DNA of 64,000 nucleotides from Oceanithermus profundus DSM 14977 (GTDB lineage Bacteria > Deinococcota > Deinococci > Deinococcales > Marinithermaceae): assembly GCF_000183745.1 (NCBI RefSeq), contig NC_014761.1, forward strand, positions 1,550,001 to 1,614,000. Direction: 5' to 3'. This document shows, in pieces, positions 43,626 to 53,366 of this stretch. Numbering within the stretch: position 1 is the first letter of the stretch; every line of letters begins with the position of its first letter. The notes under the pieces were generated by a model. That model ran no database searches. It had not been told where the DNA came from and worked only from the letters and a program-made list of their open reading frames with translations. The translations under genes and the position numbers were made by a program.

Positions 43626-44225
43626 GTGTACATCGCCATCGAAGGACCCATTGGGGTCGGTAAGACCACGCTCACCCGCCACCTCGCCCAGGCCCTGGAG
43701 GGCGAGGCGCTTTTCGAGGTCGTCGAGGAAAACCCCTTTTTGCCGCTCTTCTACGAGGACCCGGAGCACTACGCCTTCAAGGTCCAGGTCTTCTTTCTGC
43801 TCTCGCGCTACAAGCAGCTCGAACACCTGGCGCAGCCGCGCCTCTTCGAGCGCGCGGTGGTCGCCGACTACCTCTTCGACAAGGACTTCATCTTCGCCTC
43901 CCTCAACCTCGAGGGGCACGAATGGGAGCTCTACCAGGAGCTCTACCAGAGCCTTTCGCCGCGCATCCCCACCCCCGACCTGACGATCTACCTGCGGGCG
44001 CCGCTGGAGGTGCTGCTGGAGCGCATCCGCCGCCGCGGCCGCAGCTTCGAGCGCGGCATCGACCCGGGCTACCTCGAGCGCCTCACCGAGGCCTACGACC
44101 GCCACTTCGCCCGCTACCGGGGCCGCCTCTGGGTCTTCGACAACACCGACGTCAACTACGCCGACGATCCCGCCGCCGCCCACTGGGTCACCCGCCAGGT
44201 GCTGGCCCGGGCCAGCGTAGACTGA
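43626..44225 (+). CDS. Deoxynucleoside kinase (first of pair)
   Basis: 199 residues, GTG start 15 bases after the protease gene. P-loop G-P-I-G-V-G-K-T-T; substrate motif E-E-N-P-F near residue 37; the D-R-S-equivalent region reads F-E-R-A-V-V-A-D-Y-L-F; the lid is R-I-R-R-R-G-R-S-F-E-R. Salvages deoxyribonucleosides to monophosphates. The lack of a canonical D-R-S suggests the dGK/dAK-type subunits found as pairs in some bacteria. Exact base preference unknown. Confidence 0.88.
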   Translation: MYIAIEGPIGVGKTTLTRHLAQALEGEALFEVVEENPFLPLFYEDPEHYAFKVQVFFLLSRYKQLEHLAQPRLFERAVVADYLFDKDFIFASLNLEGHEWELYQELYQSLSPRIPTPDLTIYLRAPLEVLLERIRRRGRSFERGIDPGYLERLTEAYDRHFARYRGRLWVFDNTDVNYADDPAAAHWVTRQVLARASVD

Positions 44226-44233
44226 GGGCGGGC

Positions 44234-44860
44234 ATGTACATCGCCATCGCCGGAAACATCGGATCGGGCAAGTCCACGCTCACCAGGCTGCTGGCGGCGC
44301 GCTACCGGCTGCACCCGGTCTACGAGGCCGTGGAGGAGAACCCCTACCTCGCCGACTTCTACCTCGACATGGGGCGTTGGGCCTTCCACTCGCAGGTCTT
44401 CTTCCTGGCCAAGCGGCTCGACCAGCACCTGAGCGAGATCAACCCCCGCCGGCGGGTGGTGCAGGACCGCACCGTCTTCGAGGACGCCCACGTCTTCGCG
44501 CGCAACCTGCGGCAGCAGGGGCACTTCTCGGACCGCGACTGGGCCACCTACACCGCGCTCTTCCAGGGGGTGGCGCGGGCGCTCCGGCAGCCCGACCTGC
44601 TCATCTACATCCACGCCGGCGTAACGACGCTCAAGGCGCGCATCGCCAAGCGGGGACGCGACTACGAGCGCGCGATTCCCGAAGAATACCTGGCGGCGCT
44701 GAACCAGCTCTACGAGGAGTGGGTGGGCGGCCTCAAGGACGTGCCGGTCCTCACGCTGCCCGGCGACGAGCTGGACTTCGTGGAGAACCCCGAGGACCGC
44801 CGCTGGATCTACCAGCAGCTCGAGGTGCGCGGCCTCCAGCCCTTCGAGCTCTTCGAGTGA
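44234..44860 (+). CDS. Deoxynucleoside kinase (second of pair)
   Basis: 208 residues from ATG 44234, eight bases after its paralogue. P-loop G-N-I-G-S-G-K-S-T, E-E-N-P-Y, catalytic V-Q-D-R-T-V-F-E-D (D-R-x type) and lid R-I-A-K-R-G-R-D-Y-E-R. The pair shares the same opening (M-Y-I-A-I-x-G-x-I-G) and overall frame, so they are an old tandem duplication; by analogy with lactobacilli they may form heterodimers of dAK with dGK or dCK. Confidence 0.88.
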   Translation: MYIAIAGNIGSGKSTLTRLLAARYRLHPVYEAVEENPYLADFYLDMGRWAFHSQVFFLAKRLDQHLSEINPRRRVVQDRTVFEDAHVFARNLRQQGHFSDRDWATYTALFQGVARALRQPDLLIYIHAGVTTLKARIAKRGRDYERAIPEEYLAALNQLYEEWVGGLKDVPVLTLPGDELDFVENPEDRRWIYQQLEVRGLQPFELFE

Positions 44861-44864
44861 ACCC

Positions 44865-46298
44865 ATGACCCTTCGCGAACTCTTCGCCCCCTTCGGCCTC
44901 GCGGCTCCCGACGTGGAGGTGCGGGGGGTGACCCACGACTCGCGGCGGGTAGAGCCCGGCTTCGTCTACGTGGCCTTGCCGGGCCGGCGCTTCGACGGGC
45001 ACGCCTTCGTCGCGGACGCCGTGGCCCGGGGCGCCGTGGCCGTGGCGGGCGCGCGGGCGCTGAGCCCCGGGGTGCCCTACCTGCGCCTGCCCGAGACCGA
45101 GCTGCGGCCGGCGTTGGCGCGGCTGGCGGCGGAGTTCCACGGCCGCCCCTCCGAAAAGCTCTGGGTCGCGGGGGTCACGGGCACCGACGGCAAGACGACG
45201 ACCACCTTCCTGCTGCACCACCTGCTGGCCTCTAGCGGCCGGCGAACCGGGATGATCGGCACCGTCGGCTACGACGCCGGCGCGGGGCTCGCCTTCCCCG
45301 AAGGCCACTTCACCACCCCCGAGGCGCCGGAGGTGCAGGGGCTCTTGGCGCGGATGGTCGAAGGCGGCCTGACCCACGCGGTGCTCGAGGCCAGCTCCCA
45401 CGCCCTGGCCCAGCACCGGCTCGACGCCGTGGACTTCGACCTGGCCGTCTGGACCCACCTCAGCCCCGAACACCTCGACTTCCACGGCGACATGGAGGGC
45501 TACTTCCGCGCCAAGGCCCTGCTGGTCGAGCGGGCGCGGCTCGCGGTGCTCAACACCGCCTGCCCCTACGCCATGCGGCTGGTGCACCGGCCGCACCTGA
45601 GCTACGGCCCGGGGGGCGAATTCGAGCTGCTCGAGGTGCACGAGGAGGCCGCCGGGCTCGCCTTCGCCTTTGCGAGTCCCGAGGGCCGCTTCGAAACCCG
45701 GCTGCCAATGCTGGGGCGCTACAACGCCGAAAACGCCCTCGCGGCCCTGGCCGCCGCCTACACCGCGGGCGTGAGCCCGGAGCGCGCCGCGGCGGAGCTG
45801 CCGCGGTTCGCGGGGGTGCCGGGGCGGATGCAGATCGTGCGGACCGAACCCTTCCGGGTCGTGGTGGACTTCGCCCACACCCCGAAGGGCCTGGCCGCCA
45901 CGCTCTCCGCGCTCCGGCCGACCACCGAGGGGCGGCTCGTCGTCGTCGTCGGCTCCGCCGGCGAGCGCGACCCCGGCAAACGCGCGCCGCTGGGCCGCAC
46001 CGCGGTGGAGTTGGCTGACCTGGCCGTCTTCACCGAGGAGGACAGCCGCAGCGAACCGGTGGAGGAAATCCTGGCCGAGCTGGCCCGGGGGGCGGAGGAA
46101 GCCAGCGGGCGCGAAGGAAAAGACTACCTGCTCGAGCCCGACCGCGGCCGCGCCATCGCCCTGGCCTTCGAGCTCGCCCGCCCGGACGACACCGTCGTCC
46201 TGGCCGGCAAGGGGCACGAACGCACGCTGGAGCGCGAGAACGAGACCCTCCCCTGGAACGAGGCCGCCCTGGCGCGGAAATTACTTGGGCTGGAATAG
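44865..46298 (+). CDS. murE: UDP-MurNAc-tripeptide ligase (MurE)
   Basis: 477 residues, four bases after the second kinase. Adds the third stem-peptide residue of peptidoglycan. ATP loop G-V-T-G-T-D-G-K-T-T-T-T near residue 104; carbamylated-lysine region F-R-A-K-A-L-L near 222; C-terminal domain complete. The meso-diaminopimelate motif D-N-P-R is replaced by E-D-S-R-S-E-P, which fits the L-ornithine wall known in Thermaceae. The last 177 bases plus 107 bases of flank recur at 49199-49482. Confidence 0.94.
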   Translation: MTLRELFAPFGLAAPDVEVRGVTHDSRRVEPGFVYVALPGRRFDGHAFVADAVARGAVAVAGARALSPGVPYLRLPETELRPALARLAAEFHGRPSEKLWVAGVTGTDGKTTTTFLLHHLLASSGRRTGMIGTVGYDAGAGLAFPEGHFTTPEAPEVQGLLARMVEGGLTHAVLEASSHALAQHRLDAVDFDLAVWTHLSPEHLDFHGDMEGYFRAKALLVERARLAVLNTACPYAMRLVHRPHLSYGPGGEFELLEVHEEAAGLAFAFASPEGRFETRLPMLGRYNAENALAALAAAYTAGVSPERAAAELPRFAGVPGRMQIVRTEPFRVVVDFAHTPKGLAATLSALRPTTEGRLVVVVGSAGERDPGKRAPLGRTAVELADLAVFTEEDSRSEPVEEILAELARGAEEASGREGKDYLLEPDRGRAIALAFELARPDDTVVLAGKGHERTLERENETLPWNEAALARKLLGLE

Positions 46299-46405
46299 AG
46301 GGGTGTGGGGTGTAGTTGGTAGGAAGTAGGCCGGCCATGCACCGGCGACCGACTTTTGACCGTTGTATCACCAACAACCCCCGCCCCGGCCCTTCCCGAG
46401 GGGAG
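46122..46405 (+). repeat. Direct repeat, left copy (murE 3' end plus flank)
   Basis: 284 bases that align without gaps to 49199-49482. By my count 17 of 177 coding positions differ, mostly at third codon positions, while the 107 bases after the stop differ at only about five positions. The two copies bracket the low-GC cassette region. Confidence 0.85.
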
Positions 46406-46462
46406 AAAGCAAATATCATCCATCGTTGACGCTTTTGAAAAACTGGTCACGGCTTGGTGACA

Positions 46463-46645
46463 CGGTCTGGATCCCAGGTCGCGCGGCTTCGCCGCTTGCC
46501 TGGGATGACGAGGTGGCAGTTAAGCTGCAAGTGGATTTTGTTCAGCCATTTTTCGTCATTCCAGCCAAGCAGGCCAGAGGCCTGCGCGAGCTGGACCTGC
46601 CCCCGCGAAAGCGGGGGATCCAGAGCCTAAAGCATGGTGAGCGCT
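46463..46645. repeat. Second flanking repeat, left copy
   Basis: About 183 bases closely matching 49769-49953. Internal palindromes include GGATCCCAGG ... CCTGGGATGA and CCCCCGCGAAAGCGGGGG. Non-coding. The stretch 46406-46462 between the two left repeats shows nothing recognisable. Confidence 0.75.
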
Positions 46646-46849
46646 TTGACACTCTGGCCGACCGGTGCTGCAAGCACCATACTATTGGCAAGGGTAAGCG
46701 TCCAAACGGAGAGGATGCAGTTCCGAACGGTCAACAAGCGAACAGGCCAAAGGCAGACTTAGCTTAGAAGCATAAGCGGCACGCGAAAAGTGCTTTTGAG
46801 TTGTAAAGTGTAAGCTGACTTTTTATGCGTAACTTGCTCGCCAGCACTC

Positions 46850-46897
46850 GCTTCGCTCGCTTGGCTCGCAAGCCGCTGACGCCGTTGTTGGGTTGCC
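46850..46897 (+). other. Candidate attC right half preceding cassette 1
   Basis: Core GTTGGGT (46887-46893) fits the integron consensus GTTRRRY, preceded by AAGCCGCTGAC. The matching left half is not clear upstream; GTAAGCTGAC occurs at 46810-46819. From 46646 to 46850 there is no gene. Confidence 0.4.
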
Positions 46898-46945
46898 GAT
46901 TAGCTTTGGCGGAGTGAAGCGTACATTTTTGAAAAAAGACCAGCG

Positions 46946-47406
46946 ATGGGTCCAGCTGAGATTAACCTTTCGGATGAGCAAATAACAAATGGTCTCCAAC
47001 TTGCGTTAGAACAAGCAAGAAAGGCGAAGCGTCTAAAACGTATTCGGTAGATGCTGTTATCATGGATGTAATCCGGATTGGCATTGCGCAGGCCTACAAC
47101 CTGGTGATACCAAGAAATGATCCAACTGCACATGCTGAAATCGAGGTAATACGCAAAGCAGGAAAGTATTCGCGAAAACACGAACACCAAAGCGTGCTTT
47201 ATGTAACTGTAGAGCCGTGCCTCATGTGCATGGGGACAATAATAGCGGCGGATATTACAGCGATCGTATGGGGAGTGAATGACAGGTATGGTGGTGCAGC
47301 AAGATTTGTGCTGGAAAGATATGAAAAGGAAAACATGAAAAAAGTGCTGGCAATTCCCGAACCGCGAGTGGAGAATACAAAGGAAATAGGAGAGATGATG
47401 AAATAG
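46946..47406 (+). pseudogene. Frameshifted nucleoside/CMP-dCMP deaminase, cassette 1
   Basis: A low-GC gene split by one frameshift. Frame one (46946-47050) reads M-G-P-A-E-I-N-L-S-D-E-Q ... L-E-Q-A-R-K then stops. A -1 shift near 47020 restores S-K-T-Y-S-V-D-A-V-I-M-D and continues to 47406. The second part holds both zinc motifs of the cytidine/deoxycytidylate deaminase superfamily, H-A-E and P-C-L-M-C, like guanine or tRNA-adenosine deaminases. The shift falls at AAGAAAGG, so a programmed slip cannot be excluded but decay is simpler. About 155 codons if repaired. 47407-47517 is an untranslated tail of the cassette. Confidence 0.75.
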
Positions 47407-47517
47407 TGGGAACGCAGACGAAGATATACGGAAGAGAACTGGGTTTGACGAATTGGCATTTACGGCAGACATACGGGAACGAAATCATATAAATACTGCT
47501 TGAATTGGAAGATGGCA

Positions 47518-47647
47518 ACCCAACCCTGTGTGCAGCGGACAGCGGCTTACGCCGCTCCCAGAATCGGCGCAATTTTGCCAACGCTGGTGCTACAATGTCA
47601 GTGTGGGTTGTGCAAACCCGCCACTGCCGCCTACGCTCACGTTAGCC
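47518..47647 (+). other. Candidate attC site, end of cassette 1
   Basis: 130 bases from ACCCAAC (47518-47524) to GTTAGCC (47641-47647). The left end GGCAACCCAAC (47514-47524) is the exact complement of cassette 1's own start GTTGGGTTGCC (46887-46897), as expected for an excisable cassette. Inner arms CGG-a-CAG / CTGCCG pair with one extra base. Longest and weakest-paired of the clear sites. Confidence 0.65.
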
Positions 47648-47724
47648 CGCTTGTTCATCCCGTACAGCTGTGTGGTAAGAAAGACAAACAAATACAGCCT
47701 TTTGGAAGGGAAGGAATCGTCAAC

Positions 47725-48183
47725 TTGATACAGTATGACCCCGACTGCTTCATTTGCCGCAAACATCGAAAAGAAATACATATTCCCGGCGGGGCAATCT
47801 ACGAAGATGACCTGGTTTACATAGGACATGCTCAAATCCGCGAAGGGCAAGCCACAGCTTATCTGGGTTATCTTATGGTTGAACCAAAGCGGCATGTTCC
47901 AGGAGTGGCAGAATTAACAGATGTAGAAGCCCAGGCGATAGGTTTGATGGTGGCACGCCTAAGCAAAGTGCTCAAAGCCAGCGAAAAAGCAGAGCATGTT
48001 TATGTATTTGTGCTGGGAGATTTTGTACACCATCTTCACGTTCATGTAGTACCGCGTTATCCTGGTGCGCCACGTGAATATTGGGGTATCCACGTGGACG
48101 AGTGGCCAGGCGCACCTCGTGGTGGCGCAGAAGAGATAGACGCATTATGTATGCGTCTGCGCGAGAAACTGAAAAATGAGTAA
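47725..48183 (+). CDS. HIT-family hydrolase, cassette 2
   Basis: 152 residues from TTG 47725, with GGAAGGGAAGG upstream; a reading from 47500 would pass through the attC and is rejected. The active site H-H-L-H-V-H-V-V-P-R is the histidine-triad motif, and the N-terminal C-F-I-C with a later H supplies a zinc pair as in many HIT nucleotide hydrolases. Substrate likely a nucleotide adduct such as Ap4A or AMP-lysine, unproven. Codon usage is far more AT-rich than the chromosome, and it is the only intact gene of cassette 2 (47642-48346). Confidence 0.85.
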   Translation: MIQYDPDCFICRKHRKEIHIPGGAIYEDDLVYIGHAQIREGQATAYLGYLMVEPKRHVPGVAELTDVEAQAIGLMVARLSKVLKASEKAEHVYVFVLGDFVHHLHVHVVPRYPGAPREYWGIHVDEWPGAPRGGAEEIDALCMRLREKLKNE

Positions 48184-48225
48184 TCTCTTTGAGATGGCAG
48201 TATGATGAACCTTAAAGGCAGAGCG

Positions 48226-48352
48226 GGCTAACCCCGCGTAAAGCTGACACGCCTTCGGCTCAGGGTATGCGGCGCGTTTTTCGTGTACATTTTTTCGTGT
48301 AAAATCGGGTTGCGTTTGCAAACACGGCGGTCAGCTTACGCCCTCGTTAGCC
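48226..48352 (+). other. attC site, end of cassette 2
   Basis: 127 bases with full attC anatomy: R'' GGCTAAC (48226-48232), 5-base spacer, L'' GTAAAGCTGAC (48238-48248), loop, L' GTCAGCTTAC (48330-48339), 6-base spacer, R' GTTAGCC (48346-48352). L'' equals the complement of L' plus one extra A, the extrahelical base typical of attC. The left end AGCGGGCTAAC also complements cassette 2's start GTTAGCCCGCT. Confidence 0.82.
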
Positions 48353-48393
48353 TGCCAGATAAGAGGTATGTAGATTGAGCCAAAGGAGAAAAC

Positions 48394-48795
48394 ATGCAAT
48401 TTAGGTACGATTTTACGCGTTTGCTGGTGACGAATTTTCGGGAGTGCTTCCTCTTCTATCGAGATGTGATGGGGTTCACGCCGACATTTGGGACAGAGAA
48501 TGACACTTACGCCGATTTTTCTACGGGAACAGTCAATATTGCTTTGTTTGACAAAAGGGAAATGGCGGCAACAGTCGGAGCGGAAAAACTGCCGGAGAGA
48601 GTGGAAAGTAAGGATAGTGTGTGTCTGATATTTGGTGTAGCGAGCGTGGACGAAACCAGTGAGTATTTGCGTTTGAAGGGCGTGAGAATGGTTGTAGAAC
48701 CAACAGATCATCCGGACTGGGGTATTCGCACAGCGCATTTCCGCGATCCGGACGGGAATTTGATAGAAATCAATCAACCGATAGAGCAAGTGTGA
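48394..48795 (+). CDS. VOC-superfamily (glyoxalase/bleomycin-resistance-like) protein, cassette 3
   Basis: 133 residues with an AAAGGAG ribosome site. Two beta-alpha-beta-beta-beta modules are visible: F-Y-R-D-V-M-G-F-T-P-T-F near residue 21 and the C-terminal H-F-R-D-P-D-G-N-L-I-E-I-N-Q. The terminal E and an H are possible metal ligands. Could be a dioxygenase-like, glyoxalase-like or antibiotic-binding protein; such genes are frequent integron cargo. Low GC, 41 bases after the attC core, so it is the first gene of cassette 3. Confidence 0.85.
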   Translation: MQFRYDFTRLLVTNFRECFLFYRDVMGFTPTFGTENDTYADFSTGTVNIALFDKREMAATVGAEKLPERVESKDSVCLIFGVASVDETSEYLRLKGVRMVVEPTDHPDWGIRTAHFRDPDGNLIEINQPIEQV

Positions 48796-48796
48796 G

Positions 48797-49050
48797 ATGG
48801 GTGGCCCTGGCACTCGTCTGAAGCGACCGCGCTATGAAATGCCGGATATATTCGTGATGCGCTGGTTGAGCGCAGGCTGATGGAAGCTTATCGTAGCCGC
48901 CCGCCGTACCAGCAGAATGATTATATTGGATGGATAACCAGAGCGAAGCGGACGGAGACGAGAGAAAAGCGATTTGCGCAGATGCTGGAAGAGTTAGAGC
49001 AGGGTGATAAGTATATGAAGATGGCTTGTCGCCCTAAGCGATATGGTTGA
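48797..49050 (+). pseudogene. Frameshifted YdeI/OmdA-family gene, cassette 3
   Basis: Starts two bases after the VOC stop. Reads M-G-G-P-G-T-R-L-K-R-P-R-Y-E-M-P-D, then a one-base deletion near 48856 shifts the frame; the other frame continues I-R-D-A-L-V-E-R-R-L-M-E-A-Y-R-S-R-P-P-Y-Q-Q-N-D-Y, then K-R-F-A-Q-M-L-E-E-L-E-Q-G-D-K-Y-M-K-M to the stop at 49050. This matches the C-terminal module of YdeI/OmpD-associated proteins (PF13376-like). Length 254 bases, one short of 85 codons. Confidence 0.7.
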
Positions 49051-49074
49051 AGGGGTATGTGTTTTGTGTGAGCA

Positions 49075-49145
49075 GTTGACAGACAAACCCTGCATTCACC
49101 CGACCCGCTTACGGCGGTGGTAAGCGGCGCGATTTGGGCCAATTT
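49075..49145 (+). other. Possible degenerate attC remnant
   Basis: ACAAACCCTGC, the hairpin CCGCTTAC-ggcggtg-GTAAGCGG and GGCGCGATTTGGGCCAA recall the left half of the 47518 site (ACCCAACCCTG, CGGCTTACGCCG, GGCGCAATTTTGCCAA). It lacks the GGCAGGCTAAC end expected for cassette 3. Confidence 0.35.
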
Positions 49146-49175
49146 GGGGGCTTTTCAAAGTCTGTCGGGCTGGGG

Positions 49176-49375
49176 AATCCGGCGGGCGTGAGGGGTAAGA
49201 CTATCTGCTCGAGCCCGATCGCGCGCGCGCCATCGCCCTGGCCTTCGAGCTCGCCCGCCCGGGCGACACCGTCGTCCTGGCCGGCAAGGGGCACGAACGC
49301 ACATTGGAACGAGCCAGCGAAACCCTACCCTGGGACGAAGTCGCCCTGGCGCGGAAATTACTTGGGCTGGAATAG
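49176..49375 (+). pseudogene. murE: Duplicated murE 3'-end fragment
   Basis: Encodes D-Y-L-L-E-P-D-R-A-R-A-I-A-L-A-F ... A-L-A-R-K-L-L-G-L-E then TAG, matching the end of the intact murE with a handful of conservative changes. An in-frame TAA just upstream (where intact murE has AAA) closes it. No start, no promoter. Right copy of the direct repeat that brackets the cassette region. Confidence 0.85.
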
Positions 49376-49482
49376 AGGGGTGTGGGGTGTAGTTGGTAGG
49401 AAGTAGGCCGGCCATGCACCGGCGACCGACTTTTGGCCGTTGTATCACCAACAACCCCCACCCCGGCCCTCCCCAAGGGGAG
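49199..49482 (+). repeat. Direct repeat, right copy
   Basis: Collinear with 46122-46405. A partial third copy of its non-coding part (GGCCGGCCATGCACC ... ACCAACAACCCCCACCCC) occurs at 50045-50136. Confidence 0.85.
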
Positions 49483-50580
49483 GGAGGTTCGTTTTCGCGG
49501 CGACTAAATCGTGGAGTTCGGGCGCGGCACGGGCCCCGGATCAGGTCCGGGGCAGGCCCGGCTCGCGCGGCCGCAATGGACGCTTGGCCGGGGACGCGAA
49601 CCACTTTTTCTTTTCCGCAACCAAAGCCGTATCCCCGGACGACCGAGGCTTGAAGCCGAGGGAGATCCGGGGTCAATGCTGAGCGGTAAGCCGAAATTAG
49701 GTTGATACCAACGAGTCGCCATCTATTCGCCAGAATGCTGACGCAACCTCAATCGCGGGTCGGTGACCCGGTCTGGATCCCAGGTCGCGCGGCTTCGCCG
49801 CTTGCCTGGGATGACGAGTTGGCAGTTGGGCTACAAGTGGATTTTATTCAGCCATTTTTTCGTCATTCCAGCCAAGCAGGTCGTAGACCTGCGCGAGCTG
49901 GACCTGCCCCCGCGAAAGCGGGGGGATCCAAAGCTTAAAGCATGGTGAACGCTACGGTTTGTTTGATGGCCGACTTTAAAGCCTCCCCCTTGGGGGAGAT
50001 GGCGGCGTAGCCGCCAGAGGGGGGTTGTTTGCTGGAATGCCGGATGTGGGGTGTGGGCCGGCCATGCACCAGCGACCAGCTTTTGGCCCAAGCATCACCA
50101 ACAACCCCCACCCCAACCCTCCCCCAGGGGAGGGAGCATTGCTTTTCGGTGACCGAATCGTGGGGTTCAGGCGCGGCATGGACCCCCGGATCAGGTCCGG
50201 GGCAGGCCCGGCTCGAGCGGGTCAACGGCCCGCTTGTCCGGAACGACGGGGGCGTCTTTTCTGCCCTCTCTTTTTCTTCGTCACCCCGGACGAGCGGAGC
50301 GAGATCCGGGGCTTGTCCTGAACTTGATTCAGGGTCTCGCGGGTGCTAGACAAACTCCGTCACCCTGGACGTGCAAGGCGGGACCGGGCCTGCCCCTGCG
50401 AAAGCAGGGGTCCATGCCGGACGCAAAGCCGAACTTCGGACGCCGTTGGTTGGCCCGCCACAAGCCGGGCAGGAACCCGGGTCCGCCCCCTACGGCGCTT
50501 GCGCACCGCGTGCTGCGCACCAGCCTCCGCCGGGGCCGCCAGACCGGCCCGGTACCGGGGATCACGTTCCCGGTGCGAAC
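49483..50580. repeat. Non-coding repeat field downstream of the cassette island
   Basis: No credible gene in about 1.1 kb. Contents: CCGGATCAGGTCCGG palindromes at about 49535 and 50185, second flanking repeat right copy 49769-49953, the AGCCGCCAGAGGGGGG block near 50010, partial repeat 50045-50136, and GTCACCCCGGAC ... ATCCGGGG near 50280-50310, matching 28025-28060. Short frames here are chance or shadow readings. Confidence 0.7.
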
Positions 50581-50600
50581 CTCCCGGGCTAAACTAAGGC

Positions 50601-51032
50601 ATGGAGCGTTTCCCGACCAGCCTGCTCGAACGCATCGAGGCGTCGATCTACCTGGCCGCGGGCTACATCCTCTCGCTCGCCGCCGCGGCGCTCCTGGGCT
50701 TCGCGGTCTGGGAGGCGATCGGGCTGTTCTCCAGTCAAAACCTGGCCGGGGCCATCGTGCGGCTCTTGGACCGGGTGCTGCTGGCGTTGATGATCGCCGA
50801 GATCATCTACACCGTCGCCCGTTTCTCACGCGAAGGCCACCTCGAGGCCGAGCCCTTCCTGGTCGTGGGCGTGATCGCCGCGGTGCGGCGGATGCTGGTG
50901 ATCACCGCCGAGAGCACCGTGGAAATGAGCCTCGACAGCGCCCACTTCCTCGCGGTTCTGGCCGAGCTGGGGCTGCTGTCGCTGGCCATCGTCTGCTTCG
51001 CCTTCGCCATCTTCCTAATTCGGCGGCGGTAG
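50601..51032 (+). CDS. PsiE-domain membrane protein (first of pair)
   Basis: 143 residues, four predicted spans. The block V-G-V-I-A-A-V-R-R-M-L-V-I-T-A-E between spans 3 and 4 is the PsiE (PF06146) signature. Family members are named for phosphate starvation in E. coli, but their biochemistry is unknown. TAAACT (50590-50595) ends five bases before the ATG. First clean gene after the repeat field. Confidence 0.85.
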   Translation: MERFPTSLLERIEASIYLAAGYILSLAAAALLGFAVWEAIGLFSSQNLAGAIVRLLDRVLLALMIAEIIYTVARFSREGHLEAEPFLVVGVIAAVRRMLVITAESTVEMSLDSAHFLAVLAELGLLSLAIVCFAFAIFLIRRR

Positions 51033-51041
51033 ACTGGGGTC

Positions 51042-53366
<2,325 letters not shown>

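Follow-up and report, generated by a model that had tools for sequence, protein, structure and literature searches.

Oceanithermus profundus is a heat-loving bacterium of deep-sea vents. The genome of strain 506T consists of two contigs, one of 2,303,940 and one of 135,351 bases (2,439,291 in total; PMC3111992). Within the 64,000-nucleotide stretch of its DNA analysed here (the window), the GC content falls from 71-73% in the host flanks to about 50% at 46.6-49.2 kb. This low-GC segment lies in an insertion between murE and the next gene, bracketed by two murE 3' ends and by the repeats that come after them, and it contains three gene cassettes in tandem:

44865..46298, plus strand: murE, complete host gene (open reading frame); left border of the insertion
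46299-46405 and 46447-46645: host dispersed intergenic repeats, left copy, by similarity to the right copy
46646..46887: left remnant, 242 bp between the left repeats and cassette 1, 53% GC
46888..47641, plus strand: cassette 1, with G|TT borders; start complements its own R'' over 11 nt
46946..47406, plus strand: TadA-like/dCMP deaminase gene of cassette 1 (PF14437/PF00383), broken by a frameshift
47642..48346, plus strand: cassette 2, with G|TT borders; start complements its own R'' over 11 nt
47725..48183, plus strand: HIT-family hydrolase gene of cassette 2, intact (PF01230, E 6e-9)
48347..~49193, plus strand: cassette 3, right end lost; left border G|TT at 48346; resembles an Anaerolineae attC as far as ~49193
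48394..48795, plus strand: VOC/glyoxalase-family gene of cassette 3, intact (PF00903, E 3.5e-15)
48880..49050, plus strand: YdeI/OmdA-domain gene fragment of cassette 3 (PF13376, E 3.8e-12, profile positions 20-60 only)
49194..49375, plus strand: second, divergent murE 3' end, 90.5% identical to the left copy
49376..50466: host dispersed intergenic repeats, right copy, by similarity to the left copy; many chromosomal copies

A preliminary description of this DNA had proposed three low-GC cassettes, and their borders indeed coincide with exact G|TT cut points (46887/46888, 47641/47642 and 48346/48347), at a GC content of 47%, 49% and 50% for cassettes 1, 2 and 3, respectively. Comparison of the deaminase gene with a homologue by tblastn places 46946-47050 in one frame (the N-terminal match being weak) and 47062-47406 in another. 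The HIT protein of cassette 2 has its best relatives in Chloroflexota, with 69-71% identity to Thermoflexales proteins. In cassette 3, positions 48702-48783 of the VOC gene are 85% identical in DNA to one Anaerolineae-class genome, and the YdeI/OmdA fragment is 71-74% identical to several. With two genes out of four damaged, the array is decaying. The Thermoflexales loci with the closest HIT relatives (L014 and L015) were considered as a donor array and rejected, since they are ordinary chromosomal settings without attC. A role of the HIT and deaminase proteins in defence was likewise discarded, the matches to defence-system models being far too weak. Relatives of the cassette proteins found in plasmid searches all have less than 60% identity, and single-protein scans of viral contigs revealed no cassette relatives apart from one deaminase.

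The attC sites were sought with two home-built covariance models, neither of which includes any window sequence; their calibration was short and their E-values are rough. Model R1 was made from six Thermaceae attCs and three from plasmid R46 (class 1), and model R2 from ten Anaerolineae (Chloroflexota) attCs. Covariation backs the structure of R2: 88.6% of cells are paired, there are 24 double changes, and none of 500 shuffles scored as high. Within the window R2 gives exactly three matches, all on the same strand and at cassette spacing; the last of these runs into the right junction:

47518..47647, plus strand: attC1, 130 nt (R2 23.6 bits, E 2.6e-4 in 64 kb)
48226..48352, plus strand: attC2, 127 nt (R2 98.9 bits, E 2.5e-24; R1 E 7.4e-6)
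49082..49193, plus strand: attC3, truncated (R2 match 49082-49205, 59.4 bits, E 8e-14)
49183..49193: right junction, where attC3 and murE share ~10 bp (microhomology, GCGGGCG.GA), from alignments of the window, the attC of Anaerolineae array L133 and the left murE

Thus, the attC-like anatomy noted earlier in two intervening sequences is recovered by R2 in attC1 and attC2 and by R1 in attC2, the next best R1 match in the window having 14.4 bits. The wider covariance search proposed in the preliminary description yields three sites only. R2, for which the known sites served as an internal control, reports these and no others across the genome (150 of 1213 candidates were scored in a first look), with attC1 in its array form weak (E 0.0098 genome-wide); R1 reports no matches genome-wide, the known attC2 also going unreported, and is uninformative at that scale. 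Rfam at a permissive threshold gives nothing relevant. An attC-like dyad in the left remnant ("attC0", 46827-46893) is supported by neither model and was set aside.

The boxes of attC2 are R'' GGCTAAC, L'' GCGTAAAGCTGAC with an extrahelical A, L' GTCAGCTTACGC and R' GTTAGCC, and the L boxes pair over 12 bp with the extra A. In attC1 the R boxes are ACCCAAC/GTTAGCC and L pairing is imperfect, while attC3 is a half site that retains R'', L'' and the loop region and has lost the outer L' and R'. Both attC1 and attC2 conform to RYYYAAC ... GTTRRRY with one mismatch allowed. By a descriptor that scores the R box, spacer and L box with one extrahelical base, attC2 reaches 19, the maximum, and none of 400 dinucleotide shuffles reached 16. 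As had been described for both complete cassettes, cassettes 1 and 2 each begin with 11 nt that exactly reverse-complement the left end of the attC they carry (GGCAACCCAAC, AGCGGGCTAAC); complementarity of this length was reached in 18 of 20,000 draws of random 15-mers against 200-nt tracts from the same region. The start of cassette 3 has no exact complement to its own R''. When the free circle is rebuilt, with each attC followed by the start of the cassette it belongs to, folding of the bottom strand relative to shuffled controls changes from z -0.8 in the array (not significant) to -4.06 for attC1 and from -1.4 to -3.61 for attC2. That a low-GC genomic island should carry palindromes mimicking attC by chance is thus barely credible: attC1 alone is weak in array form, but the matches in the window and the genome number exactly three with common strand and spacing, complementarity and folding jointly form a circle signature, two sites match attCs of Chloroflexota arrays (86% and 85-94%), and the held-out models refute the idea. 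attC1 and attC2 could still be substrates of an integrase supplied in trans; attC3 probably could not.

Relatives of attC2 and attC3 occur at 71-94% DNA identity in Anaerolineae-class genomes (the class of a Thermoflexales MAG). For attC2 the identity to an Anaerolineae site is up to 86%; for attC3 it is 85-94% over 48-101 bp, including 85% over 101 bp to the L133 attC. The window attCs have no match in the other genomes of a set of 111 Deinococcota. With R2, held-out Anaerolineae sites mostly score 70-104 bits, Thermaceae sites 23-51 and class 1 sites 38-43; attC2 (98.9 bits) falls inside the Anaerolineae range and above the other two. The Anaerolineae integron arrays (L130-L139) resemble the window array in attC length (~127 nt), loop sequence and L-box motifs, and attC2 and attC3 align with their sites over most of their length. 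Several are multi-cassette arrays, but none has the three cassettes of the window. No donor with the same cassettes turned up in the search, which gave the attC family and, separately, relatives of the genes. The preliminary description had taken a lack of attC hits, with the same genes in order outside an integron, as the contrary outcome; instead, the attCs match and the three-cassette gene set occurs together in 0 of 110 other Deinococcota and 0 of 396 Anaerolineae-class genomes. The Anaerolineae-class donor genomes are probably mostly MAGs, in which contamination is possible, and about eight of them agree. One contig of the class (L139, G202:C97) carries a partial divergent intI adjoining an attC2-like site, the arrangement of a canonical integron head, in what is probably the donor class.

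The preliminary description had seen no integrase gene nearby, and this extends to the whole genome: tyrosine-recombinase matches to TIGR02249 do not exceed 43 bits vs a cut-off of 265, and the recombinases matched lack the IntI-specific W-W-YVFP-S-DPR-RHH segment that is present in Thermaceae and Anaerolineae IntIs. No attI was recognised to the left of cassette 1. Lacking IntI, the cassettes are unable to mobilise themselves. In IntegronFinder usage, a cluster of attC sites lacking an integron integrase is a "CALIN", and CALINs occur in many phyla (PMC9024848). With sites at 47518, 48226 and 49082 (one truncated) and no intI, the array is a CALIN; of the parts of a complete integron, it lacks an intI gene and shows no recognisable attI site. 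It has at least two attCs within 4 kb, on one strand, with short genes between and no intI nearby, as CALINs do, but differs in that only two sites are intact, the attC type is foreign and the whole lies inside a host duplication. By default, IntegronFinder 2 requires two detected attCs for reporting (PMC9024848), so elements with a single strong site can escape notice.

IntI above the TIGR02249 cut-off is found in 7 of the 111 Deinococcota genomes, all outside the host family, and the other 13 genomes of that family have neither an IntI nor a cassette match. Complete integrons are present in four relatives, L092 (G040), L097 (G032), L098 (G025) and L099 (G026), whose "Thermaceae" label derives from kinship; intI is also found in L082-L086. 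These Thermaceae-type integrons have a conserved attI-like sequence ending ACTAGTT[GA]-, and their attCs, canonical in form, lie on the side expected. They belong to the same phylum as the window array and have IntI, attI and attC; their attCs are 57-94 nt long with another loop sequence, and they hold no cassette in common with it. Such relatives make it conceivable that a complete integron of an Oceanithermus ancestor captured the cassettes and then lost intI and attI, and the 242-bp left remnant could contain a relic of the platform. We regard this as unlikely given the empty record of the host family, the ceiling of 51 bits for Thermaceae attCs with R2 vs 98.9 for attC2, a left remnant without significant match to Thermaceae or Anaerolineae integron loci, and a right end that is a microhomology junction within attC3. 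The left remnant is possibly the end of a lost upstream cassette or of an integron platform.

Integron cassettes had been called little described in this lineage. This holds for the open-access literature, where we found no account of integrons or attCs in Deinococcota; it needs refining in that complete integrons, apparently undescribed, exist in the related Thermaceae. The Oceanithermus genome paper does not mention integrons (PMC3111992), an IntegronFinder survey of vent organisms has Oceanithermus only in its reference list (PMC10295459), and the single report of an "integron", from Thermus parvatiensis, concerns a prophage region with attL/attR (PMC5529391).

The truncated attC of cassette 3 (49082 to ~49193) and the enclosing duplicated murE tail go beyond the preliminary description. 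The left murE is 88% identical in DNA to congeners G002 and G003. In G002, about 11 bp separate murE from the next gene, and the insertion and the right repeat stretch are absent; in G003, the matches flanking the insertion site are ~480 bp apart. Thus, among the genomes examined, the insertion is specific to O. profundus. The left repeats are 91-97% identical to 49376-49482 and 49753-49953. As a query, the repeat stretch 49376-50600 returns 120 blast pieces across the chromosome and represents a dispersed intergenic repeat family. Differences between the right murE 3' end and that of the functional left copy are distributed 2/5/10 by codon position, mainly at the third, and the right end retains congener residues that are missing from the left copy; consequently, it looks like a second allele rather than a decayed copy of the left. 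The two 3' alleles (46090-46405 and 49167-49482) are 9% apart, with ~90 bp across the stop codon fully identical, a tract that suggests a later gene conversion or the crossover itself. In the surrounding host DNA, 43626-44860 holds two tandem deoxynucleoside-kinase-like genes (MYIAIEGPIGVGKTTL and MYIAIAGNIGSGKSTL). Beyond the repeats, 50601-51032 and 51042-51521 are adjacent small membrane-protein genes, apparently tandem paralogues, and 50777-50908 cross-matches at ~73% the congener homologue of 51227-51358.

On the right, attC3 tracks its Anaerolineae relative up to ~49193 and then enters murE through the common motif. A junction at 49166/49167, the border of the murE blast match, was dropped because the L133 alignment puts it at ~49183-49193. 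IntI is known to integrate sporadically at secondary sites, and host DNA lies on both flanks, so stepwise insertion of single cassettes into a secondary, non-attI site by a trans-acting integrase comes into question. This is very improbable, however: the right border is a break inside attC3 and not a G|TT cut, three related tandem attCs and the left remnant favour transfer as a block, and the genome has no integrase.

The reading that we favour, with a probability of roughly 0.8, is that a truncated Chloroflexota cassette array came in as passive DNA, through illegitimate recombination aided by homology, and is now a stranded, decaying CALIN. An integron integrase would have put the array together outside this genome, most likely in a chromosomal integron of the Anaerolineae type (Chloroflexota), and a fragment of it would have entered O. 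profundus as plain DNA; in this group, natural transformation is the most probable way in. Joining on one side by homologous recombination, within the murE tail and the dispersed repeats, and on the other by microhomology inside attC3 would have resulted in an insertion-duplication. The duplication, the difference between the alleles and the truncated attC3 are there in the DNA; from them we infer the route of import and the order of events, the two-step insertion being read from one end state. The preliminary description of a CALIN in this chromosome thus stands as regards the array and its attCs, with the refinement that the cassettes did not arise in this lineage and bear attCs of the Chloroflexota type.

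Integrons are best known from Gammaproteobacteria. The array is an ordinary type of element in a lineage without an earlier description, and its interest lies in the host and in the inter-phylum origin: Chloroflexota attCs in a vent thermophile point to movement of cassettes between phyla in hot environments, and the array is a readable record of entry into a genome without an integrase. It may be, at slightly less than even odds, that a Chloroflexota block crossed into Deinococcota with no recipient integrase, through murE homology and microhomology, and is stored for pick-up by an IntI acting in trans. If so, passive DNA can carry cassettes from one phylum to another, where a trans-acting IntI, such as that of Thermaceae, may later pick them up. 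Along with the integrons of Thermaceae, the array opens integron activity in Deinococcota to testing.
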